Shown in pieces: positions 11,456-31,148 of a stretch of DNA of 34,396 bases. Below the pieces are notes generated by a model. It did not search any database. It saw only the letters and a list, made by a program, of their open reading frames with translations, and was not told the DNA's origin. The position numbers and the translations under genes were made by a program. Position 1 is the stretch's first letter, and each line of letters starts with the position of its first letter. The DNA comes from a virus. The stretch is from the IMG/VR virus record IMGVR_UViG_3300032053_000270, positions 1 to 34,396 of that record. One strand, 5' to 3'.

Positions 11456-12232
11456 TTAGACTTCTGTGCCTTCAAATTCGACATCCACGTTCACAAGCTC
11501 GCCGCGCAAAAATGGGGTAATTGCCGGAGCCGCCTTGGAGGTGACATCCAATTCCAAAGGATTGGTCGTAAAATATCCTAACCAGACCCGGCCGTTGTGA
11601 TCGGTGACCCGTATCTTCACGGCGTTGTATGCTCGGTAGAACTCAAACAATTCTAGTGACTTGGGACGAGAGAGCCTGAAAGGCCAGTGGAATTTCTTGC
11701 GAGAACGCCGTTTGACATACGTGTATCGTGTACCATCGACGGCTGTCTTACGGCTGACCGAATCAAGCAGTTGCTCCGAATCTGAGAACTGCAGATTCGG
11801 CAATATCGTAGTAGTAACAATCGCAGGATAGGGTGCCTCGAAAATGAACATGCGTTTTGACTCCCTACTAGTTGCGATCAACACCGCCCCAGCAACATCC
11901 GTTAATTGAAGCTGGGATGCGCACATCCCCACCAACCCGCCAAGAACCTCGAAACCCAGCCGACTCACTCGAAGTTCAGTTGTCGAGACACCCAGCACTT
12001 CCAAGTCCAACCGACTCGTCTGCAACCACGCCGCTGACTTGCCCAGCACCTCCGCAACAATCCGGCTGGCTCTAAGTTGAGGGGCTACTTGCTCGCCAAG
12101 TACCTCAGTGACGAGGCGACTCGCCCGCAACACGCTCGGACCCTGGCCCAAAACTTCCAGGGTGGTTCGGCTTGTTCTCACAGCACTCGGACCGGGCCCG
12201 AGTGCTTCAACGGTTAGGCGGGTCACTCGCAT
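11456..12232 (-). CDS. Tail protein with six 17-residue 'xRxSRxxxEVLG' repeats
   Basis: 258 residues. The start at 12232 forms a TGATG overlap with the preceding gene's stop. Residues 1-103 are six near-exact repeats of about 17 residues with the core R-x-S/T-R-x-x-x-E-V/A-L-G. Residues about 105-258 form a globular domain ('YTYVKRRSRKKFHWPF', 'LELFEFYRAYNAVKIRVTDHNGRVWLGYF', ending 'VNVDVEFEGTEV') whose order of landmarks resembles the C-terminus of the 13271-14860 product (tube-distal tail protein style). It lies just upstream of the hub in the operon, so a distal-tail/baseplate role is likely. The repeats may be a docking strand for the lectin-like partners; inferred. Confidence 0.72.
   Translation of the reverse strand: MRVTRLTVEALGPGPSAVRTSRTTLEVLGQGPSVLRASRLVTEVLGEQVAPQLRASRIVAEVLGKSAAWLQTSRLDLEVLGVSTTELRVSRLGFEVLGGLVGMCASQLQLTDVAGAVLIATSRESKRMFIFEAPYPAIVTTTILPNLQFSDSEQLLDSVSRKTAVDGTRYTYVKRRSRKKFHWPFRLSRPKSLELFEFYRAYNAVKIRVTDHNGRVWLGYFTTNPLELDVTSKAAPAITPFLRGELVNVDVEFEGTEV
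11924..12232 (-). repeat. Six tandem 51-bp coding repeats (type A)
   Basis: Encodes residues 1-103 of the 11456-12232 protein. Units begin at residues 1, 18, 35, 53, 70 and 87. Each contains S/T-R ... E-V/A-L-G. Three degenerate copies of the same unit open the 13271-14860 protein. Confidence 0.85.
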
Positions 12233-13269
12233 CAGGTCACCTGCTCGACTCCCGCCTGCACTGTGTTCAACTCCGCCACAGTCCAAGGCGCGCTTGTGCT
12301 GGGATTTTGTTCCTGCAAGATTGTATAGACCTTGTAGCCGGTGTTCACAACCACCTGGCCGCCCTGCGGCGTCTCAACCCCGCCTGCCTTCAAGACGGGG
12401 CGTAGATTGAGCGGCGCAACATCCGTCACGCGGGCGTCCACATTCAATTGAACGCCTTTGATGTTTCCGTTGATGCGTGTAAGACTCCCCATCCCGTACA
12501 GGTCTTTGTTTCCGACCATGTTGGACGACACGTAATCCGCGTCATCGTTCGTCGGGTTCTCGTCAACACAACTGTTATTAGTGCTCCCACTGGGCGTCCA
12601 ATCGCCTCGCACGGTGCTGGTTGGGTAGACGGCCTCCACAATCTGGCTGCCGAGGAAGGTGTTGTTGTCGCCTAAAGTGTTCAACACGTAGATGTCATCG
12701 TAGCGGACATAGTAGGAACCCGAGAATTCCAAACCACGGAACTGAACCCGGTCGATCAGCCCTGTGCCGCCATTGCGTGTGTCGATGCCCGTGGCGCTGG
12801 CCACCGTCACTCCATTGACGCGAACTTCGTAGGAGCCCGTGTCACCAATGGTGGTTCGGAATTCAATGTAGTACCACTGCCCGGCCGCCAGGATATTGGT
12901 CGTGCTCTCGCCGGGCAGCGTTGTGCCAGCCCGATTAACTCGGATGGCACCAGAGTTGACGATCTGGAGCCCTAAGTGGTAGAGCGACTCGCCTTCGTAG
13001 AACCTAATCAGATCGTATGCCCAACCGATCACATCCACCTTAATCGCGAAACCGACAACAATGGTGCTGGCGGGTGTAAAGGGTGGCGTCGAAAAGCTCT
13101 GAGCCGGGTTGGTAGTCGCCATCATCCCAGCCTTACCCGTGCGACCCGGCGTCAGGTAGCACAGAGTCGCATTGATAGGGGCGGCGTACTTGCGAATCAG
13201 ATTCGCGTTGATGGGCGAACTGTCCACAGTGCCGAACGTCTCAAAGCCTTCAATCCAGAGCAGTGCCAT
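12232..13269 (-). CDS. Lectin-like (concanavalin/LamG-type) tail protein, paralogue 1
   Basis: 345 residues from MALLWIEGFETFGT at 13269, 1 nt after the previous stop and with GGGAG upstream. It is one of four paralogues in this block. Shared features are the opening 'LLWIxGFExFGT'; a jelly-roll-type core with 'TIVVGFAIKVD', 'GQWYYIEFRTTIG...GSYEVRVNGVTV' (the LamG/concanavalin signature strand pair), 'YVRYDDIYVLN' and 'DADYVSS'; and a C-terminal small domain. This copy is the most diverged: its end replaces the common 'DPxGxxWT...FGVKV' with 'APWTVAELNTVQAGVEQVT'. Such modules usually bind sugars, so tail-fibre or receptor-binding function is likely. Its stop overlaps the next start. Confidence 0.75.
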   Translation of the reverse strand: MALLWIEGFETFGTVDSSPINANLIRKYAAPINATLCYLTPGRTGKAGMMATTNPAQSFSTPPFTPASTIVVGFAIKVDVIGWAYDLIRFYEGESLYHLGLQIVNSGAIRVNRAGTTLPGESTTNILAAGQWYYIEFRTTIGDTGSYEVRVNGVTVASATGIDTRNGGTGLIDRVQFRGLEFSGSYYVRYDDIYVLNTLGDNNTFLGSQIVEAVYPTSTVRGDWTPSGSTNNSCVDENPTNDDADYVSSNMVGNKDLYGMGSLTRINGNIKGVQLNVDARVTDVAPLNLRPVLKAGGVETPQGGQVVVNTGYKVYTILQEQNPSTSAPWTVAELNTVQAGVEQVT

Positions 13270-13270
13270 A

Positions 13271-14860
13271 TTATGACTCCCATTCCGCAAGATCACCCTC
13301 GAACTCGAACCCGACTGTAAAACATCCTGGAGAATCTTCTACAAGCGGATCAAAAGTCAACACCACCCCTCGCCAGTATCGCTGCTCGTAGTCGACAAGT
13401 CCCACTTCCAGGCCAAGATAAGACGAGAAGAACGCGAGCACCGCATCACCTCGCACACGGGTTAGACCTGTGACCGTCCACACCAGTGTGGTGAGCTTCG
13501 GCCAGATCGAATCCGCAAACGTGACGAGCGTACCACCACGAGTCTCCCGGCTAATCCGCTGACAAGTGAGCCGTTGCTTGTTGCCGAACTCTGGCGATCG
13601 CAACGGTACATTCACGGTCGGAGAAACGGGCGGCCACACGAAACGGCAGGCTCCGATTCCAGCGATCGGACCATCAAGTGTGGCGGGCGGCGGTGTCCCT
13701 CCCGAACCTATGAAGGGGCTGTAGATATTCTCAACGCCCAGGGTGATTCGAGACCAGCCCACCGATTGTTGCAGATTCAGCGTGTCGGACGCTGAGAGCG
13801 TGTAAACGACATTCAGCGTTGCCGCGTCAGTCAGGACTAGGGTGTCGGCGACCGCTTTGGAGGCCACCACCTCAGCCGTCTGCATCAGGGCCAGCGTATC
13901 GGCCGCTAGGGGCGTCTGGTTGACGTAGGCTGCGTCCGAAAGGGATAGGCTGTCAGAAGCCTCGGCCGGTATTCCGTCCGCCCTGACGTGCTCCACGAAC
14001 GCTACGTGCCACAGGGGTAGGTTGTGAACAGTGCCGACTGGCAGTTGCCGGTCAGCTTCCAGTCCTGCCGCGTCCTGGAGCCCGACCAGATACTCGACTT
14101 CAGTGTCTGTTGCCGCGTCATATCGACTTCGCGTCTCAACCAACGTGCTGGAGGCTGACACGCTGATCGGGTGCCCAACTGGAGCGTTGTGAGTCAGGTT
14201 GAGCGTGTTACTCGCCGAGAGATTCGCCACAAGCCCCGGGGTCGCCGTGTGGCTCAGATTGATAGTGTCGGCGACTACCCGATAATTCCCTGCAAGGAGA
14301 ATCGCAGAGTCCGTGAGTGTGAGTGTATCGCCGACTCGTTGAATTCGATCAGCGACCAACGAATCTGTCAAACTGACAGTGTTTGATGCGCTGACATTTA
14401 GAACAGCGCCCGGAAGAGCCCCATCTGTTAGAGACAGTGTATTGCTTGCCTGACGAGCTACACTCAGCCCCACGGTCGCTTCATCAGTGAGCGTCAGAGT
14501 GTGAGCAATAACAATTGGCGACAGTGCAAGTTCAGCATCAGCATCGTGACTGAGCGTCAGAGTGTCTACAACTGGATAAATCAAGTCGGCAACAACATCG
14601 TGTGTCAGACTCAGGGTGTCCACAGCGGACATGAATCGAAAGCTGATTACATACGCCTGTGATGTGAGAGACAACGTATCCGTGCTGTCCACGTCGACGG
14701 CACTTGCTGCATCCCCCAACACCGCAACGGACTGCCGAGCCACTATCACCGGCGGCACAATGGCCAACACTTCGACAAACTGTCGGGATACCCGGACTTT
14801 GCCCGAGGCACCGCCCAACGCTTCAACAGTCTGGCGAGTAACGCGAGCGTTCGTCGTCAT
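13271..14860 (-). CDS. Large repeat-rich tail protein (type A and type B repeats)
   Basis: 529 residues from the ATG at 14860 (AGGGGTG upstream). Residues 1-54 carry three type A repeats (RVTRQTVEALG, VRVSRQFVEVL, VIVARQSVAVLG). Residues 55-372 carry about thirteen 18-20-residue type B repeats with the core S-A-S/D-x-T-L-x-L-T-D/H-x-A, interrupted at about 246-298 by a non-repeat segment. The C-terminal 130 residues ('GACRFVWPPVSPTVNVPLRSP', 'LTCQRISRETRGG', 'LVDYEQRYWRGVVLTFDP', 'FEFEGDLAEWES') form a globular domain like that of the 11456 product. The repeats should form a long beta-rich stalk. It sits between lectin-like paralogues 1 and 2, so it may be a shaft that carries or anchors them. 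Confidence 0.72.
   Translation of the reverse strand: MTTNARVTRQTVEALGGASGKVRVSRQFVEVLAIVPPVIVARQSVAVLGDAASAVDVDSTDTLSLTSQAYVISFRFMSAVDTLSLTHDVVADLIYPVVDTLTLSHDADAELALSPIVIAHTLTLTDEATVGLSVARQASNTLSLTDGALPGAVLNVSASNTVSLTDSLVADRIQRVGDTLTLTDSAILLAGNYRVVADTINLSHTATPGLVANLSASNTLNLTHNAPVGHPISVSASSTLVETRSRYDAATDTEVEYLVGLQDAAGLEADRQLPVGTVHNLPLWHVAFVEHVRADGIPAEASDSLSLSDAAYVNQTPLAADTLALMQTAEVVASKAVADTLVLTDAATLNVVYTLSASDTLNLQQSVGWSRITLGVENIYSPFIGSGGTPPPATLDGPIAGIGACRFVWPPVSPTVNVPLRSPEFGNKQRLTCQRISRETRGGTLVTFADSIWPKLTTLVWTVTGLTRVRGDAVLAFFSSYLGLEVGLVDYEQRYWRGVVLTFDPLVEDSPGCFTVGFEFEGDLAEWES
13745..14698 (-). repeat. About thirteen 54-60-bp coding repeats (type B)
   Basis: Encodes residues 55-372 of the repeat-rich tail protein. 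The unit consensus is roughly xSASDTLxLTDxAxxxxxx. Copies differ in their last six to eight residues, and several use Ser-His or Thr-His in place of Thr-Asp. A gap at residues 246-298 splits the array into nine or ten plus four units. Confidence 0.82.
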
Positions 14861-14874
14861 GGGGCACCCCTGTT

Positions 14875-15897
14875 TTACAGTTTGAAGCCAAACTGCGTGG
14901 CGTTGAGATTCGTCTGGTTCCAGGTCGCGCCATCCGCATCAGTCTCCATGACTCGGCGCTGCGTAGTGTAGCTGGTAGTCCCAATCGCCGTCGCACTCCC
15001 ATTAGAAGTCGCTGTACCTTTTGCCACTTGGATCGGACTGTGATTGGTGGCGTCTTCGTTACGGCAATCCAGATTCATCTGCACAGCAATCACAGTTGAG
15101 TAGTTTGAGGCAGCCGCATAGTCGAATAGGTCGTACTGTGTGGCCGTGTCACTGTACACGTAATCGGTGTCATCGTTGACCGTATTTCCATCGTCGACAT
15201 ACGTGTAGTGGCTGCTTGTGCCAGCACTACGGGTCCAGTCATTCTGGCCAGTGTCGCCATCAGCCGACAACATGCTCACACGCATGTTGCCTAAGAAATC
15301 GTTGACCCCAGCCGTGCCATCTGCAATGTACAGATCATCAAAGTAGTGAGCCACCGTGTTGTGAAAAGGCAACTGGACCTTATTGTTGTAGGTCTGACCC
15401 GAGGGGCGAGTGTCCGCATCTGCACTACTAAGCACATTCACCCCATTGATCCGCACTTCATAAGTTCCATTCAGCCCGCAGACCACTTTCAACTCCACCC
15501 AAAACCATTGTTTTGCACGGAGCGGAGCGGTCGTAGAGGTTGCCAACAGCGTATTGGCAAGATAGACAAGCACTTGACCGTGAGCATTAGACCTAATGTT
15601 AATCCCGTTGGTCGCATCCTTTGACAGATACAAGATTCCAGTGGGGGTCGTTCCATCAGAGAGGAAGTCCAGGTATACAGCGCATCCAACAATCAAAGTC
15701 GTGTTTGTGGTAAGGGCCGGCGTGATAATCGCCTCAGCGGAACTGGTAACTTTCGCGCAGTAGCCGCCATAGCGTCCTGTCGCGATCTTAGCGGTGGTAG
15801 CCGTGTAGCCCCTGCGGGCCATGATCCCCGCTGGACTCTGGGCTGTGCCTGTCGTCCCGGTGCCATATACCTCAAAGCCGTCAATCCATAGCAACAT
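14875..15897 (-). CDS. Lectin-like tail protein, paralogue 2
   Basis: 340 residues from MLLWIDGFEVYGTG at 15897; the start overlaps the preceding stop as TAATG. It has the family core: 'TTLIVGCAVYLDF', 'KQWFWVELKVVCGLNGTYEVRINGVNV', 'HYFDDLYIADGTAGVNDFLG', 'NDDTDYVYSDTATQYDLFDYA', and the family ending 'METDADGATWNQTNLNATQFGFKL'. Lengths and landmark spacing match paralogues 3 and 4 closely. Residues predicted on the jelly-roll faces vary between copies, as expected if each binds a different ligand. No signal peptide or membrane segment is seen. Confidence 0.78.
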   Translation of the reverse strand: MLLWIDGFEVYGTGTTGTAQSPAGIMARRGYTATTAKIATGRYGGYCAKVTSSAEAIITPALTTNTTLIVGCAVYLDFLSDGTTPTGILYLSKDATNGINIRSNAHGQVLVYLANTLLATSTTAPLRAKQWFWVELKVVCGLNGTYEVRINGVNVLSSADADTRPSGQTYNNKVQLPFHNTVAHYFDDLYIADGTAGVNDFLGNMRVSMLSADGDTGQNDWTRSAGTSSHYTYVDDGNTVNDDTDYVYSDTATQYDLFDYAAASNYSTVIAVQMNLDCRNEDATNHSPIQVAKGTATSNGSATAIGTTSYTTQRRVMETDADGATWNQTNLNATQFGFKL

Positions 15898-16928
15898 TAT
15901 GCCACCTCTACACCGAACGCGGTGTTGCTAAGGTTCACTGCAGTCCAGGGGTTGCCGTCAGGGTCGGTCGCCATCAAGCGAACAACAGTCGCATAGTTCG
16001 CCCCGGGCACAGCAGCGGCGGCACTCTTGTTCAAAGTGCTCCCTAACTTCGCAGTGCTCTTAATCGAGAAACTCTGAGCATCAGTGTCCCGCACATCGGT
16101 GCAAATCTGCACACACGTAACGGTATCGCCAACATAGTCAGCGTAATCCCATATCTCGGCATCACTGGACGATGACGATTCAACGTATGTTGAATCGCTA
16201 TCGAGCGTTGCCCCATCACCGACCATTGCAGCATGATTGCTGCCGCTTTGCGTCGTCCACTGATTGGTGCCGTTGTCAGACGCGGGGTCCAGGCGAGTAA
16301 CATGAACAGGTCCAAGAAAATCGTTGTGAATGCTGCCCGAGGTGTCGAGAACATAGAGGTCATCCAACAACTTCGAGGCACTTGCAACCCCCGACACACT
16401 GACGACATCGTGATAGGCGTTACTGCCGGCTTGGGTGTTTGCGGAGCCATTGCTTGCGACATTCACCCCGCCGCTCCGCAACTCGACAGTCCCGCCCGAG
16501 GTCGCGCACTTAACCTTCAACTCAAACCAATACCACACGCCAGTTGTCAGGCCAAAGCCGCTGGTGATTGCCAACTGAGTTCCACCAGAGCCCCCACGCA
16601 TGATCTTCAATTCACCGCTGGCGGCAACAAAGACGCCAACGCCTTCAGTGGTCCCATCGTAAAGACTAAGGATATGGTTGCCCGCAGTCGCGTAACCAGA
16701 GACGAGCTTCAGTGCAAAACCGATTACTACAGTATCGACCGTGGTCAACTTCCATGTACGAAAGAATTCATTGTTACTGTCGAAATTCAAGGCATAGCCA
16801 CTGATCTGCCCCGCCGCAATGCTGCCGAAATTAGAAATACCTGAAGCGCAAATGACCGGATAGCGGCGGGACAGATTCCAACTGCCCGAGGTGCCGAGAC
16901 TATCAAAGCCGTCGAACATGAGCAACAT
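15897..16928 (-). CDS. Lectin-like tail protein, paralogue 3
   Basis: 343 residues from MLLMFDGFDSLGT at 16928, with AGAGGTG upstream. The core strands are 'DTVVIGFALKLVSG', 'TGVWYWFELKVKCATSGGTVELRSGGVNV', 'KLLDDLYVLDTSGSIHNDFLG' and 'DSDSTYVESSSSSDAEIWDYA', and the end is 'MATDPDGNPWTAVNLSNTAFGVEV'. It is serine- and glycine-rich and begins with a shorter N-terminal loop than its neighbours. It lies head-to-tail between copies 2 and 4, 10 nt from the latter. Confidence 0.78.
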   Translation of the reverse strand: MLLMFDGFDSLGTSGSWNLSRRYPVICASGISNFGSIAAGQISGYALNFDSNNEFFRTWKLTTVDTVVIGFALKLVSGYATAGNHILSLYDGTTEGVGVFVAASGELKIMRGGSGGTQLAITSGFGLTTGVWYWFELKVKCATSGGTVELRSGGVNVASNGSANTQAGSNAYHDVVSVSGVASASKLLDDLYVLDTSGSIHNDFLGPVHVTRLDPASDNGTNQWTTQSGSNHAAMVGDGATLDSDSTYVESSSSSDAEIWDYADYVGDTVTCVQICTDVRDTDAQSFSIKSTAKLGSTLNKSAAAAVPGANYATVVRLMATDPDGNPWTAVNLSNTAFGVEVA

Positions 16929-16937
16929 GGGACACCT

Positions 16938-17948
16938 CTACAGTACCTTGACGCCGAATTGCGTAGAGTTGATATTGGCCGCAGTCCAATCAGTGCCAGT
17001 GGGGTCTTGCTCCATCAAGCGAGAGAGTGTTGCATAGGATGCAGGTGCCGCTTGACTCGCATTTCCGGTCTCGGTCGAACTCAACTTAGCCTGTTGTGAT
17101 ACATTGTGGGCTACGCCCGAGTGGCGAAGTTCCGTGTTGATCTGCACCCCTACAATGCCTGCAACACCCGTATCAACATCAGAGTAGTTGTACAGATCAA
17201 GATTACCTGACTGCCCACTGACATAATCTGCGTTGTCAGTTGAGGGGTTTTCGTCCACACAGGCATAGTTGCTGCCCGCCGAGGGTATCCATTGCGAGGT
17301 TCCCGCCCCATTTGGAAACAAGGTGATGACTTGCTTGGCACCAAGGAACGATGTGTTTCTCGCGCCTGTACTATCAAGGCAGTACACGTCATCGAAAATC
17401 GGCGACTCACCTGAGATTGCTTTCAAACGGAATGTCGTATGAAAGTCGTGGCCGCCCGCCCGTGTATTCGCACTGGCTGACGTGAGGGCTGCAATTTGCG
17501 TACCGTTGACATGCACCTCATAGGTGCCGTCGGCCGCACACTTCACCTTCAACTCGATGTAGTTCCAAGCATTAGCAACAAGACCAAGGCCAGAACTGAT
17601 CGCCAATTGTGTGTTGTCGCGATAGATCGCCAACTCACCGGCCGTTGTAGACCGAAGGTTAATACCACGGGTAGCCCCATCGTAGAGAGTCAGGAAATCC
17701 AAGTCCGCCGACAGTGGCGTCTTGTATGCCAGTCCAACAGTCATGGTCTGGTCAACCGTCAGGTTCGCCGGTTGGAGATAGGCCCCGGCCGCATTGAGCT
17801 TCAGAGCCATGCCAACATAGCGGCCGGTGACAATGAGGAAATCTGATTCAGAGGCCACGGTATACTTGCGAGCCATGACATTCGCAGGAGAGGGTGCTGC
17901 CCCATTGCTGGTGCCAAATCCCTCGAAGCCTTCAATCCACAGCAACAT
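16938..17948 (-). CDS. Lectin-like tail protein, paralogue 4
   Basis: 336 residues from MLLWIEGFEGFGTSNG at 17948, with GGGGTG upstream. Core: 'QTMTVGLAYKTPLSADLDFL', 'AWNYIELKVKCAADGTYEVHVNGTQI', 'PIFDDVYCLDSTGARNTSFLG' and 'TDNADYVSGQSGNLDLYNYS'; end 'MEQDPTGTDWTAANINSTQFGVKV'. It is the first lectin-like copy in transcription order, just after the terminator hairpin at 17983-18029. 'SCVDENP' in copy 1 and 'ACVDENP' here are nearly identical, linking the two outermost copies. Confidence 0.78.
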   Translation of the reverse strand: MLLWIEGFEGFGTSNGAAPSPANVMARKYTVASESDFLIVTGRYVGMALKLNAAGAYLQPANLTVDQTMTVGLAYKTPLSADLDFLTLYDGATRGINLRSTTAGELAIYRDNTQLAISSGLGLVANAWNYIELKVKCAADGTYEVHVNGTQIAALTSASANTRAGGHDFHTTFRLKAISGESPIFDDVYCLDSTGARNTSFLGAKQVITLFPNGAGTSQWIPSAGSNYACVDENPSTDNADYVSGQSGNLDLYNYSDVDTGVAGIVGVQINTELRHSGVAHNVSQQAKLSSTETGNASQAAPASYATLSRLMEQDPTGTDWTAANINSTQFGVKVL

Positions 17949-23828: not shown

Positions 23829-24956
23829 CTAGGCCGCAACAGCGGGCCACTCTGCGCCAGAAGCAATACGATCCACTTGGGGCTCCACTGCCTTGCACTT
23901 ACCCTTGATCGAGATAGTAGCCTTCGAGAGGTCGATATCCTTGCTGTCGGCTCGGAACATCGGGAAGGCCGTCTGCTCTCGTTGGGCGGTTCCACAGGGC
24001 GGCGTATGTCGCACCAAGACATGAACACAGTACGGCTCGCACAGATCGGACGAGGCACTAACCCACTCGGCTGCACCGCTTCGACCCTTCAGAGCGTCCA
24101 TCGGGTTGACCGGCTCGCCGGTCCCTTGCGTGATGTGCTCATACACGAACTCGATGTTGACATCCATCGGAATCTGTTTGCCTTCACGCACAGAATCCAG
24201 GTCGCCCCGATCGAGCAGATACTCGTATTCCATCTTCTCGCTGTAGGTCAGATTTCCGTCGCCGACCTTGATCTCCAACTCCTGCGGCAGGAACGTAACC
24301 ACCCCGCCATCTGCATACGTGCCGGCCCCGAGAGCAGGCGAGAACACGATGTCAATAGTCGTCGTTGTGGCTACCGGCACAGCACCGACCACGTTATTCG
24401 TCACGGTTATGGTCTGAATCAAGCCACCACCGCCGGTGAGATTTGTGCCATTGCCAGTAATGAGCGCTCGCGGGGCATCGCCCAAGGCCCCGTCAAACTC
24501 AACCACCCACGCGGCGGCAACACCCGTAACCGCCCAGTCATCGGTGGTGTATCCGTCGTCCATCGCCACAAGAGCCGATTTGACTGCCGAAGTGGCGGCG
24601 TTGTAGGCAATCGCGGCAGTCGTCTTACCGCCCCACGTCAGAGTGAACGTGCCGCCGGTCGGCGCACCCGGGCTACTGGCGTCCAGGCTGACGTTTTGCT
24701 TCGCGTTAGTACCCGCTGCCGTGCCTTGGGTGCGGCCGGTGACCGTGTGAACGGCATCCGCATCCGTCTCGCCGGCAATCGTAAACCGCGCACCAATCGG
24801 AATCTTATCCGTGATAGTAGAGTTCAGCACAACCGTATCGACCGCAAACGTGGTATCCATTACGGTCGGGGGTGTGCTCGGTTCGTTAATCGCCGCCGTG
24901 CCGCTAAGACCGTCTTGCAGCACAATATCAGTATCTCTAAGCTCGATTCTGGCCAT
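23829..24956 (-). CDS. Major tail (tube) protein with inserted beta domain
   Basis: 375 residues, start at 24956 with AGGAG upstream. N-terminal 'MARIELRDTDIVLQDGLSG' and C-terminal 'ELEIKVGDGNLTYSEKMEYEY', 'DLDSVREGKQIPMDVNIEFVYE', 'FPMFRADSKDIDLSKATISI' form the tube-protein core. Residues about 35-200 are inserted; the central piece (101-177, 'GGTFTLTWGGKTTAAIAYNA', 'VEFDGALGDAPRALITGNG') is a Thr/Gly-rich beta-sandwich repeat of a kind seen in many surface proteins. It would decorate the outside of the tail. A strong terminator follows the gene. Position before the chaperone and after the tail terminator supports the call. Confidence 0.85.
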   Translation of the reverse strand: MARIELRDTDIVLQDGLSGTAAINEPSTPPTVMDTTFAVDTVVLNSTITDKIPIGARFTIAGETDADAVHTVTGRTQGTAAGTNAKQNVSLDASSPGAPTGGTFTLTWGGKTTAAIAYNAATSAVKSALVAMDDGYTTDDWAVTGVAAAWVVEFDGALGDAPRALITGNGTNLTGGGGLIQTITVTNNVVGAVPVATTTTIDIVFSPALGAGTYADGGVVTFLPQELEIKVGDGNLTYSEKMEYEYLLDRGDLDSVREGKQIPMDVNIEFVYEHITQGTGEPVNPMDALKGRSGAAEWVSASSDLCEPYCVHVLVRHTPPCGTAQREQTAFPMFRADSKDIDLSKATISIKGKCKAVEPQVDRIASGAEWPAVAA

Positions 24957-25991: not shown

Positions 25992-26285
25992 CTATTTATT
26001 GTCTTGGTTCAGGCAACTCGCCTTGCATGTCCATCTCTCGTTCATCGCCTGCTCCAGCCGACGCATGATGAAGGTGTTCTTAGCAATAACCCTCGTGCAT
26101 TTCACCACCAGTGGCAGCAAAATGCTTTTGTGATCGTCCTCTAACTTCATGATTCGCGCCGACATTCGATTCTCGCGATGCCACCCCTGCCAAAGGAAGA
26201 AGGCCACAACAATGGTGAGCGGTCCATACTGTCGCAAGACGGTGATGGCCTCACCAAAATCAATCTGAGCAAACAACAAATCCAT
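25992..26285 (-). CDS. Small single-pass membrane protein
   Basis: 97 residues from MDLLFAQIDF at 26285, with a strong AGAGGAG. A hydrophobic segment at about 20-36 ('GPLTIVVAFFLWQGW') is followed by a basic, helical cytoplasmic-type tail with 'RIMKLEDDHKSILLPLVVKC' and a C-terminal Cys pair (C88, C92). No family is recognised. It sits between the coat and neck genes, an unusual place for a membrane protein. A small holin or spanin-like protein, or a virion-membrane contact protein, is possible; a holin would normally have more than one segment or a lysin partner, and neither is seen. Confidence 0.6.
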   Translation of the reverse strand: MDLLFAQIDFGEAITVLRQYGPLTIVVAFFLWQGWHRENRMSARIMKLEDDHKSILLPLVVKCTRVIAKNTFIMRRLEQAMNERWTCKASCLNQDNK

Positions 26286-26377: not shown

Positions 26378-27790
26378 TTAGCCAAGCAACACTGCGCACA
26401 GGTCGGTATCCAGAACGGCAATACCGGCCAGGATGTCGAGATTGACAACCGTGCCGCCATTCTGAATGTCGTACTGCATCGAAACCCGCATGGCGATGTC
26501 GTTGTAGACACCGACGTGCGAGAGGACGCCCATCGCATTGTTCGGCACAGCCAGGGGGCGCGTGACGAGGGCAAGGGCATCCCGGTGAAACGCCATGTTG
26601 AGCGAGCCGCCAGGGCCGGGGAACGCCGCCTGGTCATTTATCAAAGCAACGTCCAGCGGACGATCCAGGATCACGGACTGATCCGTGGTGCTGGCGCTAA
26701 GCCACGACTCGATCACCGTGTAGACACGGCGAGCAGAGCCGGTGCCAAACGCGACCAACTGACCAACTTGAGGGGCAACAGTCCAACCATCCAGAACGAT
26801 GGACTCTGCGTAGCCAATCGCATAGCCGCCCTGGACCGCGCACGCCTTGTAGACTGTGACCACAGCGTCATTGGCAACCGCGTACTTCAGCGCGGCGCTC
26901 AGCGTCATGCCGACCGGGGTGCCAGCGCCCGAAGTAGCCGTGAGATAGGTGGGCTGATCGTCGCCCGCCACTGTCACGTACTCATTGGCCGCACGCGCGC
27001 CTGTAAAGCCATTGACCGTCAGTTCACCAGCTTCGCCAGCGGCATAGCCAGAAACTTCGTCAATTGCACCGATCACAGTGTCACAGCTAACAGCCGCCAC
27101 ACTGTTGACGTTCTGGTCCATGTAGGTGTTGAACCCAAGGATGCGGCCGAGGGTAGCGTTCTGCAACGCCGTCCCGCCGTCTCCGCGCTCGTTGGCCTTG
27201 AGGAACAGTTCGTTCTTCAGCAACGCCGTCTCCGCCGTAGCCGCCAGAACGAGATTACGTCCGTCCGCCGGGGCCTTGTTGACGTTCATCTTCTCGCGAG
27301 CTTCCAGCAAGAAGTCCTTGCTGTTGGCACTCGTCAGATTCCCGAGCCGGCCGACCTTGTTCGCGAGGAACTTGTGAGCCTGGCCGAGAACCGCGCGGTC
27401 CACGGCGCGGGCGATCGTCTGCATACCAGGGCGCAGATAGATGTCCACGAGGTCCTGGAAGCTCTTGCTGGCCTCGCCATCCTTGATGACGAAGCTGTTG
27501 TAAATCCACTGATCCAACGGCACGCGCACGTTGGTAGCGTTTGCGTCCTGCTGCGTCAGCGCAGTGCCGTCCTTCTTACGGCGAATGCGGAAAGTTCCCG
27601 GCTTGCGAGTGTTCACCACGTCGCCGTAGCTGCGAACTTCCGACTCGAAGTCGCGGTGGACGAGGTTCGCGATGACCATATTCTCTTCGAGAATGGCCAA
27701 GCCTTCGTTCGCCCACTGCTCGGGAACGTAAGCGTCGTTGTCGTTGGCGAAGCAAGCGAATTGGGCCTGGGACAGATACAGAGTCTTCAT
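26378..27790 (-). CDS. Major capsid protein (P22 coat type, HK97 fold)
   Basis: 470 residues, start at 27790 with AAAGG upstream. Residues 20-70 carry the P22-like coat signature 'YVPEQWANEGLAILEENMVI', 'ANLVHRDFESEVRSYGDVVN' and 'TRKPGTFRIRRK'. The core continues with 'DLVDIYLRPGMQTIARAVDR' and 'FLLEAREKMN', and ends with 'AFHRDALALVTRPL' and 'MRVSMQYDIQNG...VVNLDILAG'. An inserted beta domain at about 245-385 matches the P22 insertion-domain position. Residues 4-14 (LYLSQAQFACF) are almost identical to the start of the scaffold, which precedes it. Flanking hairpins on both sides fit high expression. It would build an icosahedral shell. Confidence 0.88.
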   Translation of the reverse strand: MKTLYLSQAQFACFANDNDAYVPEQWANEGLAILEENMVIANLVHRDFESEVRSYGDVVNTRKPGTFRIRRKKDGTALTQQDANATNVRVPLDQWIYNSFVIKDGEASKSFQDLVDIYLRPGMQTIARAVDRAVLGQAHKFLANKVGRLGNLTSANSKDFLLEAREKMNVNKAPADGRNLVLAATAETALLKNELFLKANERGDGGTALQNATLGRILGFNTYMDQNVNSVAAVSCDTVIGAIDEVSGYAAGEAGELTVNGFTGARAANEYVTVAGDDQPTYLTATSGAGTPVGMTLSAALKYAVANDAVVTVYKACAVQGGYAIGYAESIVLDGWTVAPQVGQLVAFGTGSARRVYTVIESWLSASTTDQSVILDRPLDVALINDQAAFPGPGGSLNMAFHRDALALVTRPLAVPNNAMGVLSHVGVYNDIAMRVSMQYDIQNGGTVVNLDILAGIAVLDTDLCAVLLG

Positions 27791-27825
27791 GTGTTTACCT
27801 TTCGGTTTGTCAAGAAACGAAACGG

Positions 27826-27841
27826 GCCGCGACTGCGGCCA
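27826..27841 (-). terminator. Hairpin between scaffold and coat genes
   Basis: Six-pair GC stem (GGCCGC/GCGGCC) with a four-base loop; on the minus strand CGTTTCGTTTC follows. Weak terminator, possibly tuning the scaffold-to-coat ratio. Confidence 0.6.
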
Positions 27842-27868
27842 TCAAACGGACAAACCCCTGGTGAGACG

Positions 27869-28711
27869 TTACGAGCGGTTGGCCTTAAGAGGCCGGAGTC
27901 CGAGAAGCTCAGGGTTCTTCGCGCGAAGCTCCCGATACTGTTGCGGAGTCAACTTCGCAACATCAATACGACCACTCTGACCCGGCGCAAGGCCGCCGGT
28001 TGCCGATCCTGCTCCGATTCCGCTGACCACGCCGGATTTGAATTGATTGCCGTACTCCGGCAACTCTTTCATCCGTTTGACCGCTTCTTCGGGTGTATGA
28101 ACATAGAGAGTGGACTCACCGGTCTTGGGATCAATGCCGGGCATTTCGACGACAACCTTAAATCCGTTAGATCGCTTCGTTATGGGGTCCATCTCTTCAA
28201 TCATTTTCGTCATAGGCTTCAACAGCGTGACGATTTGAGATGCGCTAAAGGCATCATTCTTGATCGCGGCATCTTGCAGCGATCGCTGTACAGTAGAGTC
28301 ACGGTATCTCGACTCCCAACCGCGCGATGTCTCCTCCAGTGCTGTCAGTTTCGCCTGATACGACGATTCCAACTCCTGTTTTTCCAAAGCGGCTTGCTGT
28401 TCCTTCGATCGCAACTGCCCTTGGACTGCGGCCAAGTTTTCTTGCAGCGACTTGCGATCACTCTCGTTAAGAGTGTTGGATTTCAGAGTATCCTGCAGCT
28501 TCGTCTCTTGTACCTTGAGTTGGGCTTGGTGCTTCCGGCGGTCCTCAGCCAGGAATGCGTTTACTTCGTCCTGGGTGTACGTAGATTTTTCACCCGCCAC
28601 GCCAGCACCAGCCGCGCCAGCACCAGCCGCTCCAGCCACGGCCGCACCAGCGGCACCTTCGCCCTCGAAGCAAGAGAATTGAGCACGCGAACGATACAGA
28701 TCAAACAACAT
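27869..28711 (-). CDS. Capsid scaffolding protein
   Basis: 280 residues from MLFDLYRSRAQFSCF at 28711 (AGGA upstream). After an 11-residue motif shared with the coat protein comes an Ala/Gly low-complexity stretch (17-40), then 'YTQDEVNAFLAEDRRKHQAQ' and a long charged coiled coil (about 56-145). Residues 150-225 form a small compact region ('FSASQIVTLLKPMTKMI', 'TGESTLYVHTPEEAVKRMKE'), and the C-terminus 'LTPQQYRELRAKNPELLGLR' is basic and helical, the typical coat-binding end. The coiled-coil architecture and position before the coat gene define it as scaffold. No protease domain is seen. Confidence 0.82.
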   Translation of the reverse strand: MLFDLYRSRAQFSCFEGEGAAGAAVAGAAGAGAAGAGVAGEKSTYTQDEVNAFLAEDRRKHQAQLKVQETKLQDTLKSNTLNESDRKSLQENLAAVQGQLRSKEQQAALEKQELESSYQAKLTALEETSRGWESRYRDSTVQRSLQDAAIKNDAFSASQIVTLLKPMTKMIEEMDPITKRSNGFKVVVEMPGIDPKTGESTLYVHTPEEAVKRMKELPEYGNQFKSGVVSGIGAGSATGGLAPGQSGRIDVAKLTPQQYRELRAKNPELLGLRPLKANRS

Positions 28712-29395: not shown

Positions 29396-30586
29396 TTACG
29401 GTTGCGAGTATCCCCGCAGCCAATGAGCATCAGGTGTCGAGTGCTGGGCGTACCAACCCTCGCCCCACAAGTCTTGCAGTTGCCGAAAATACGATTCGTA
29501 TCTCCAACGCACCACATTCATTGAGTAATTGGCAACAGCGTGCTGGTGGATGACGTAGGGGTTTAACTTCGGCGCTTCTTTCGCGGCCCACACAAATTCG
29601 TTGAGCGTGTGACAGCGAAAGCCCGTCTTGCCGTGGATCACAGTTTCAGGAAAAGCTCCAAAGTCAGTGGTGATCGCCGGTGTTCCAGCGAACTGACACT
29701 CGACGGCAACTGCACCAAAGGGTTCTGTGTACGTCGTAGCGATGAAGGTCGCTAAGGCCCCGCCGTAGAGTTTGGCCCGTTTGTCGCCTGTCGCGAAGCC
29801 GACGTACTCCAAGTCGCCTTCGTAGACTTCGCCATCTGCACAGTGGATGCGTTGTCCGCCTTCTATCCGCTCGACTTTGGTGCATCCTTGTCCCGCAATC
29901 TTGAGCTTTGCCCCAATCCGCTTGCACGTCTCGACCGCAATGTGTATTCCCTTCCGCTTCACCAACCGGCCGAGGTATAGGTAGTAGTCATCCTTCTTGA
30001 CTTGCAGCGGATAGTCTTCGGGATTGAGGTAATTTTGTATTACCCGATCGTACCAGTAGCCATCAGGATCAAAGCCGCCCTCTGCGCCCCAGATTTTGGC
30101 TTGATGCGAATAGGATTCATACACACGGTAGCGTCCTTGCTTTCTCGGCAGCAATCCATTATAACCCGCCCCGTACTCCACCACCATCACGTCGCCTTCA
30201 ACAGCCTCTACCAATGGCAGGCTTAGGTTGCCGGTGATAATGAGAACAAAGTCGCGAGGTTGCTTCCGTTTGTTGATCTCGACAGCCGCGCGTTCGTTAA
30301 GCAACTTCCAGTAGGGGGCATCTGATGTCCATTGTACATCATAAAGGGCGTCGGGATTATAGGGACCAAAGAATCCCTCTTGCTCGGCGTGTGTCATCAC
30401 GTTCACGTCTTCCACACACCACTTACCAATGTCACTACCTTCAACGCCGTAGTGAAAGCACTCGTGCCCCAGTGACGAGAGCATTTGAATCCCGTGAAGA
30501 ATCTTTTGAGTAAAGGCACAAGCTGAATGCGAATTATTCGTCTGCGTGTGGGGGAGACCGACGAAATGAAAGCGGAATTTGCTCAT
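29396..30586 (-). CDS. GT4-type glycosyltransferase (GT-B fold)
   Basis: 396 residues. Start at 30586 (MSKFRFHFVGLPHT, GAAGG upstream) chosen because the family's N-terminal strand begins here; it overlaps the endonuclease gene by 53 nt. The C-terminal Rossmann domain has 'YYLYLGRLVKRKGIHIAVET' (201-220), 'AKLKIAGQG', 'LEYVGF' and the E288-x7-E296 nucleotide-sugar motif in 'EPFGAVAVECQFAGTPAITT', followed by 'GAFPETVIHGKTGFRC'. The enzyme would transfer a sugar from an activated donor. Between an endonuclease and a head connector gene it may modify virion protein, phage DNA or host surface; the acceptor is unknown. No membrane segment is present, so it is probably cytosolic. Confidence 0.85.
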   Translation of the reverse strand: MSKFRFHFVGLPHTQTNNSHSACAFTQKILHGIQMLSSLGHECFHYGVEGSDIGKWCVEDVNVMTHAEQEGFFGPYNPDALYDVQWTSDAPYWKLLNERAAVEINKRKQPRDFVLIITGNLSLPLVEAVEGDVMVVEYGAGYNGLLPRKQGRYRVYESYSHQAKIWGAEGGFDPDGYWYDRVIQNYLNPEDYPLQVKKDDYYLYLGRLVKRKGIHIAVETCKRIGAKLKIAGQGCTKVERIEGGQRIHCADGEVYEGDLEYVGFATGDKRAKLYGGALATFIATTYTEPFGAVAVECQFAGTPAITTDFGAFPETVIHGKTGFRCHTLNEFVWAAKEAPKLNPYVIHQHAVANYSMNVVRWRYESYFRQLQDLWGEGWYAQHSTPDAHWLRGYSQP

Positions 30587-31148
30587 AGTGACCTTCAAGA
30601 TACAGGATGGCGGTTCGCAGTAACGCAGGGTTGTCTTTGAAATTACCGATGCCGTGATTACACCTGTGACACAGTAGTCCACGAATCTCGCCTAATGCGT
30701 GATCGTGATCGACTGAAAGCGTGCCAACTTCCTCTGGTGTTTTCCGGCAAATAAAACACCCACCACCCTGATGTTGTAACAGCGATTCGTACTCGCCCGG
30801 CTCCAACCCATAGCAGTGATCTCGTATCGCTGCACATTGAGTAATTGAATCTTCGCGATAGGCTTGGTTGGCACGGGCGCGTCGACACTCGGCGCAGTAG
30901 GGCGTGTTATAAGTCTTCCCGCGCTTAAGCCGTTGAACGTCAAACAGTTCAACAGCTTTCAACTCACCACAGTCAAGGCACCGTCTTGTCCCTTCGGGAA
31001 CAACCTCCTCTGTCCGACGACGATAGCGTCTTTCATAGCCACGATGATTTCGGTAGCACTCCTTGCAATCTGGGCGTCGGCCATCCTTGGAGGCGCGATT
31101 CCGAACAAATTGACTAAGTAACTTTTCCTCACCGCAACGCGAACACAT
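30534..31148 (-). CDS. Endonuclease VII-like nuclease with two N-terminal zinc knuckles
   Basis: 204 residues from MCSRCGEEKLL at 31148. Two treble-clef-like Cys4 modules come first: C2/C5/C28/C31 and C57/C60/C85/C88, joined by a very basic stretch (35-47). The endonuclease VII domain follows: C131-x-x-C134, D147-H-D-H150 and C160-x-x-C163-N164 ('CFICRKTPEE', 'LSVDHDHALGEIRGLLCHRC'). T4 endonuclease VII cuts Holliday junctions before packaging; relatives are also free-standing homing nucleases. The last about 18 residues ('QIPLSFRRSPPHADE' included) are encoded inside the next gene and look like added tail. Start context is weak (GAGACGAAG). Confidence 0.85.
   Translation of the reverse strand: MCSRCGEEKLLSQFVRNRASKDGRRPDCKECYRNHRGYERRYRRRTEEVVPEGTRRCLDCGELKAVELFDVQRLKRGKTYNTPYCAECRRARANQAYREDSITQCAAIRDHCYGLEPGEYESLLQHQGGGCFICRKTPEEVGTLSVDHDHALGEIRGLLCHRCNHGIGNFKDNPALLRTAILYLEGHYEQIPLSFRRSPPHADE

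Follow-up and report, generated by a model that had tools for sequence, protein, structure and literature searches.

A short N-terminal peptide tag shared by, and covarying between, the coat and scaffolding proteins of a group of viruses with P22-like coats

The window analysed here corresponds to a complete IMG/VR virus record (34,396 bases), and the coat and scaffolding proteins that it encodes open with one and the same short peptide. An N-terminal tag is present on both coat and scaffold in about 130 related contigs, which represent a large and uncultured group of bacterial viruses. The tag varies widely among these relatives (ACF, LICF, WTPAG, YQIKWVG, and LLADVR versions), but within any one genome the coat and scaffold agree in their version of it.

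The tag and the genes that carry it

The scaffold (28711-27869) and coat (27790-26378) genes are tandem genes on the minus strand, the scaffold gene lying directly upstream of the coat gene. Both identities had been proposed earlier and were borne out by profile searches: the coat gene matches PF11651 (P22 coat; E 1.4e-27, 97 bits against a cut-off of 24) and phrog_283 (E 7e-58), and the scaffold gene matches phrog_206 (E 1e-8). The top Foldseek matches of the AF2 coat model in the PDB are the Sf6 and P22 coats, and the coat is P22/Sf6-like with a P22-type HK97 fold. For the scaffold, the profile match, the gene position, and a coiled coil with a C-terminal helix-turn-helix all fit a phage head scaffolding protein. 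The features discussed below are the following (a slash in a protein start marks the boundary directly after the tag, or the equivalent position in untagged proteins).

28667-28711, minus strand: scaffold tag MLFDLYRSRAQFSCF (residues 1-15), followed by EGEG; covaries with the coat tag
28583-28666, minus strand: scaffold linker, Ala/Gly-rich and length-variable (residues 16-43; alignment, AF2 pLDDT below 50 at residues 14-39)
27869-28582, minus strand: scaffold body, coiled coil and C-terminal helix-turn-helix (LTPQQYRELRAKNPELLGL; phrog_206, AF2)
27749-27790, minus strand: coat tag MKTLYLSQAQFACF (residues 1-14); covariation stops past F14, AF2 pLDDT about 50
26378-27748, minus strand: coat body, P22/Sf6-like HK97 fold with N-arm helix at residues 23-37 (PF11651, AF2, Foldseek)
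23829-24956, minus strand: major tail protein, M/ARIELRD..., untagged in this genome; tagged homologs carry the tag before the same residue

A six-frame scan of the window for LYxSxAQFxCF found all eight fixed positions at exactly two places, the starts of the coat (MKT-LYLSQAQFACF-ANDND) and of the scaffold (MLFD-LYRSRAQFSCF-EGEG). There was no third site in the window, the runner-up matching 5 of 8 positions and lying in no plausible gene start. The 11-residue motif that the original prediction placed at these two starts is indeed common to both and its coordinates are correct, the tags lying at 27790-27749 and 28711-28667. Because both genes have an ATG codon with a Shine-Dalgarno-like site upstream, and the tag is kept in relatives, the start codons do not lie downstream of the motif, as had been considered.

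The tag is unstructured in the AF2 models of both proteins. Confidence is low for residues 1-39 of the scaffold, i.e., the tag and a length-variable Ala/Gly/Pro linker, and for residues 1-16 of the coat, and it is high for the coat N-arm helix and for the bodies of both proteins, with scaffold helices at residues 47-151 and 256-270. The linker tethers the scaffold tag to the coiled-coil body, and placement on a disordered tether of variable length is what one would expect of a short motif acting by binding in trans. In the coat, the body opens with ANDNDAYVPE right after the tag.

Covariation of the tags within genomes

Relatives were gathered in three rounds. Searches with the coat and scaffold yielded close relatives; alignments of these gave about 140 further loci in viral contigs, together with four loci in bacterial MAGs labelled Planctomycetota, Pirellulales, and Anaerolinea; and divergent coats as queries gave 80 loci of a second clade, the relatives taken being the best 80 per scan of 366 and 398 matches. 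We found no literature report on this phage group. Nearly all loci that hold both gene starts carry the tag on both proteins, and the opposite outcome, i.e., a motif kept in one of the two only, is clear only in L312, where the scaffold retains MVLDLYDLLVWAG and the coat and tail protein start M/A or M/S.

Most tags are 7-15 residues long and many are polar; the coat tag of L014 and L016 is very short (MLNFATF). Pairs of coat and scaffold tags include LLADVRETSF and LLADIRPVAY (L165), NILASF and NLLASF (L154), TIELACY and FTELACY (L150), SPVQLACY and SPVALACY (L131), VVVSY and VLISY (L048), and ARARFVCF and TRARLVCF (L063). In the second clade the coat, scaffold, and major tail protein can be read together, as in L276 (LWTPAG, LWTPSY, and IWMPAG), L288 (RLWYG, RLWYG, and RNWYG), and L315 (YQIKWIG, YQIKWVG, and YEIKWVG). 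Among close relatives the same substitution is often seen in both proteins, e.g., C to S or SY to CF. A secretion or lipoprotein signal, which would have a basic start, a long hydrophobic core, and a lipobox or AxA site, was rejected on inspection, the tags being too short and in many cases polar, with the Cys replaced by S, L, A, or F jointly in both proteins.

For 82 pairs of coat and scaffold tags the score was 30 within the own genome and 15 against other genomes. With 25 representatives below 65% coat identity, the BLOSUM score was 26.3 within and 8.3 across genomes (z 9.9, 0 of 20,000 permutations), and with 25-28 representatives under 65-70% coat identity it was about 26 versus 8-9 (z of about 10). 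Tag ends were placed by eye for a minority of the divergent loci; an anchor-free test, which guards against bias from this, gave z 10.5 for the coat and scaffold starts, and control regions treated likewise gave 0.7 (coat residues 26-50 and scaffold start), 0.5 (coat start and scaffold end), and -2.1 (both ends). For the second clade z ranged from 10.5 (21 representatives) to 17 between coat and scaffold, from 6.6 to 12.6 between coat and tail, and from 5.8 to 11.5 between scaffold and tail. Chance likeness of the gene starts, with 0 of 20,000 permutations in every test, has a negligible probability. Shuffling the residues within the tag lowered the likeness from 28 (aligned) to -5; composition is therefore not its cause and the covariation is positional. 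It is significant at most positions between -11 and -1 and is gone at +1 and beyond, so the tag has a sharp end. The check proposed at the outset, i.e., whether the motif covaries among relatives of both proteins, has thus turned out strongly positive, which supports the common docking site suggested there.

Similarity had also been claimed for the DNA of the two gene starts, and CTGTATC, CAATTC, and CTTGCTTCG are indeed present in both, but in relatives codon identity is close to what codon usage predicts. Codons agree at 52 of 124 shared residues in the window's clade, versus 57.8 expected from the codon usage of the same genes, and at 156 of 322 in the second clade, a slight excess over the 138 expected. 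Identity over the 30 bases upstream is practically equal within and between genomes (28% versus 27%). The DNA of the gene starts is therefore alike because the amino acids are shared, and what is kept alike is the peptide rather than DNA or RNA. Gene conversion or repeated duplication of the gene starts would produce likeness within a genome and agrees with the three short DNA strings common in the window, but the codon counts, the unrelated upstream DNA, and a likeness that ends at one residue make it very improbable, and the trace of duplication or recombination originally envisaged finds no support here. The same holds for the translation-control element that had been offered as another explanation. 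A regulatory or expression element at the starts of highly expressed genes would suit carriers that include the most abundant virion proteins; selection, however, acts on amino acids rather than codons, the upstream DNA is unlike, other late genes are untagged, and portal and tape measure are tagged in some phages. We rate such control at the RNA level a shade lower still than gene conversion.

Further carriers and the boundary of the tag

The N-termini of other proteins were scanned for each genome's own tag. Across 31 large contigs, 89 starts preceded by a ribosome site score at least 28 with the own tags, compared with 2.3 with the tags of other genomes. Chance-level matches aside, those scoring at least 28 belong to the scaffold, the coat, the tail protein, a few tape measure and portal proteins, and one 234-aa protein. 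Tagged homologs of the major tail protein occur in L168, L152, L136, L160, and L166 and in most of the second clade (32 of the 51 listed genomes); in L168 the tail protein starts MNPLYLAPAMLICF/ARIELRD and the coat MNPLYLATAMLICF/ANDND. In the window's own clade most tail proteins, that of the window among them, start M/ARIELRD and are untagged. The tape measure is tagged in G043 and G045 and more weakly in G048 and G052, and the portal in G049 by the scan and in L263, L272, L326, and L330 by eye. The adaptor, two neck/terminator families, and a chaperone-like family carry no tag. Restricting the motif to coat and scaffold, as was done originally, was thus too narrow.

The 234-aa protein of G046 (L360:10408-11112, minus strand) has no PHROG match and carries the tag MTMNRIFVSVF; its homologs occur in 22 surveyed loci and are tagged only in G046, and it is possibly not a virion protein. 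The major tail protein occurs twice in tandem within one genome in L004, L013, L023, L035, L143, and others.

The tags on tail, tape measure, and portal proteins make it unlikely that the tag serves the contact between scaffold and coat only. Such a contact is known from P22, which has a homologous coat and whose scaffold C-terminus binds the coat N-arm (D14, E15, E18; N4) (PMC9965877). In the coat, the tag directly precedes the N-arm helix, the element that the scaffold C-terminus meets in P22, and acidic residues follow both tags. The C-terminal helix-turn-helix of the scaffold could bind the coat tag, with the scaffold tag as a copy for scaffold-scaffold contact or autoinhibition. However, this mimicry leaves the tags on tail tube, tape measure, and portal unexplained, the scaffold C-terminus is conserved across tag types without special co-divergence, and the tag is undocked in the AF2 scaffold model. 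We regard this explanation as improbable. In P22 itself the contact uses the scaffold C-terminus and not a shared N-terminal peptide (PMC9965877), and coats of P22 type from outside this group begin with the residue that follows the tag here.

Untagged relatives start at the boundary itself. None of the three proteins is tagged in L261, where they start M/ADENV, M/ANDLDAF, and M/AQIDFK, and the coats of five isolated phages (Vibrio phage SSP002, Dinoroseobacter phage R26L, Gordonia phage VanLee, Streptomyces phage Hiyaa, and Microcystis phage MaAM05), about 30% identical, have M or V and then A-N or A-T at approximately this position. The tag was thus added before an ancestral M/A start. An initiator Met before Ala is normally removed, so that cutting off the tag would give tagged proteins the mature N-terminus of the untagged ones. 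These M/A starts are the main argument for a removable leader, although insertion of a tag after the start codon would look alike. Directly before the boundary stands F, Y, or H (with one R) in the window's clade, and the second clade has mostly F or Y there, but also G, S, H, C, K, or R; such variation would be unusual for a single protease, unless its specificity drifts, and counts against removal.

Proposed role of the tag and comparison with known systems

The N-terminal 8-15 residues may act in trans as a peptide tag on several virion proteins of one phage, nearly always the scaffold and coat, often the major tail protein, and at times the tape measure or portal. One common partner, presumably encoded by the phage, would read the tag, and its binding groove would diverge with the tag, so that all carriers have to change together. 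Most likely the leader would be cut at its sharp C-terminal edge, leaving the ancestral N-termini (A-N-D.. for the coat, A-R-I-E-L.. or A-Q-I-D-L.. for the tail tube, and E/D-G-E.. for the scaffold). To this combination of a shared trans-acting tag, one co-diverging partner, and most likely removal we assign about an even chance. The tag-like start on the scaffold only in L312 and the mostly untagged tails in the window's clade count against it.

The covariation within genomes is equally expected for a tag that is retained and docks new virion proteins uncut on a phage-made hub, a chaperone, or a site of the cell. The varied residue before the boundary favors retention, as does the lack of a candidate among the proteases searched for. 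A search of 36 contigs, which may be incomplete, gave no Peptidase_S78 (prohead protease), with positive controls in four genomes; CLP_protease and Trypsin_2 matched only 1 and 3 of 25 contigs, respectively, which provides no general protease candidate; and S77 matched 0 of 25 contigs in a search in which the positive controls gave no match either. Against retention, untagged homologs start exactly one Met ahead of the boundary residue, and the finished particle would have to tolerate an extension on its tail tube, coat, and tape measure. We hold a retained tag to be less probable than the removable leader. The co-divergence of nine structural genes with the tag, with coat distance controlled for, gave partial correlations of 0.03-0.34 and no clear partner among them.

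Of the known systems, the closest are the T4 capsid-targeting sequences of IPI, IPII, IPIII, and Alt, N-terminal propeptides of roughly 10 residues that are removed by gp21 (PMC7411985, PMC9026906). The tag resembles these in being a short N-terminal peptide (about 10-20 aa) on several phage proteins, separable from the body and probably read in trans, and in these respects it works like them. We do not, however, count it as a member of the T4 family: the carriers here are scaffold, coat, tail tube, and at times tape measure or portal rather than internal ejected proteins, the boundary lacks the gp21-type cleavage motif with an acidic residue before the cut, the S78 protease was not found, and the tag diverges widely, covarying among its carriers across a very diverse group. 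In the giant phage SPN3US many head proteins have N-terminal propeptides, which a known protease cleaves at a T4-like motif (PMC7411985); on several proteins these propeptides are reported to be as long as 111-130 residues, compared with 8-15 residues here, where tail proteins are included and the protease families searched gave no general candidate. RaK2 and the viunalikeviruses also have different structural proteins with a common N-terminal segment, thought to bind a common partner (PMC3622015), although this segment is about 50 residues long, is confined to tail spikes, and does not include a short covarying tag.

A shared tag implies a common step in the making of head and tail that has not been seen before, and its co-divergence is a handle for finding a new protease, chaperone, or hub. 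We know of no phage with one short covarying N-terminal tag common to coat, scaffold, tail tube, and in some cases tape measure or portal. The natural series of tags documents short-motif coevolution with unusual clarity, and the system lends itself to testing phage-specific assembly. More tentatively, the tag may be a private peptide code, in which a phage-encoded reader matures or sorts head, scaffold, and tail proteins and co-diverges with the code so as to act on its own proteins only; we consider this possible but somewhat short of an even chance. If true, processing in each phage would be confined to its own virion proteins, also when infections are mixed.

Some further observations concern other genes of the window and the coat gene of relatives. 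A group 1 glycosyltransferase gene (29396-30682, minus strand) lies among the head genes, and its homologs are found upstream of the scaffold in L008, L024, L040, L136, and G012. Directly after the coat gene, a small membrane-like protein (LRQYGPLTIVVAFFLWQGW; 25992-26285, minus strand) is kept in approximately half of the relatives. Four related proteins (336-354 aa) encoded in or near tandem at 12232-17948 (minus strand) start with MLLWIEGFE.FGT or similar. The coat genes of three relatives contain Rfam group I introns (RF00028) at L044:6065-6725, L105:1790-2416, and L106:6951-7579. They sit just after the tag and IPEL, so that the tag and the start of the N-arm are split from the body, and in L143 the coat gene has an unexplained insert two codons further on (past ...IPELWA).
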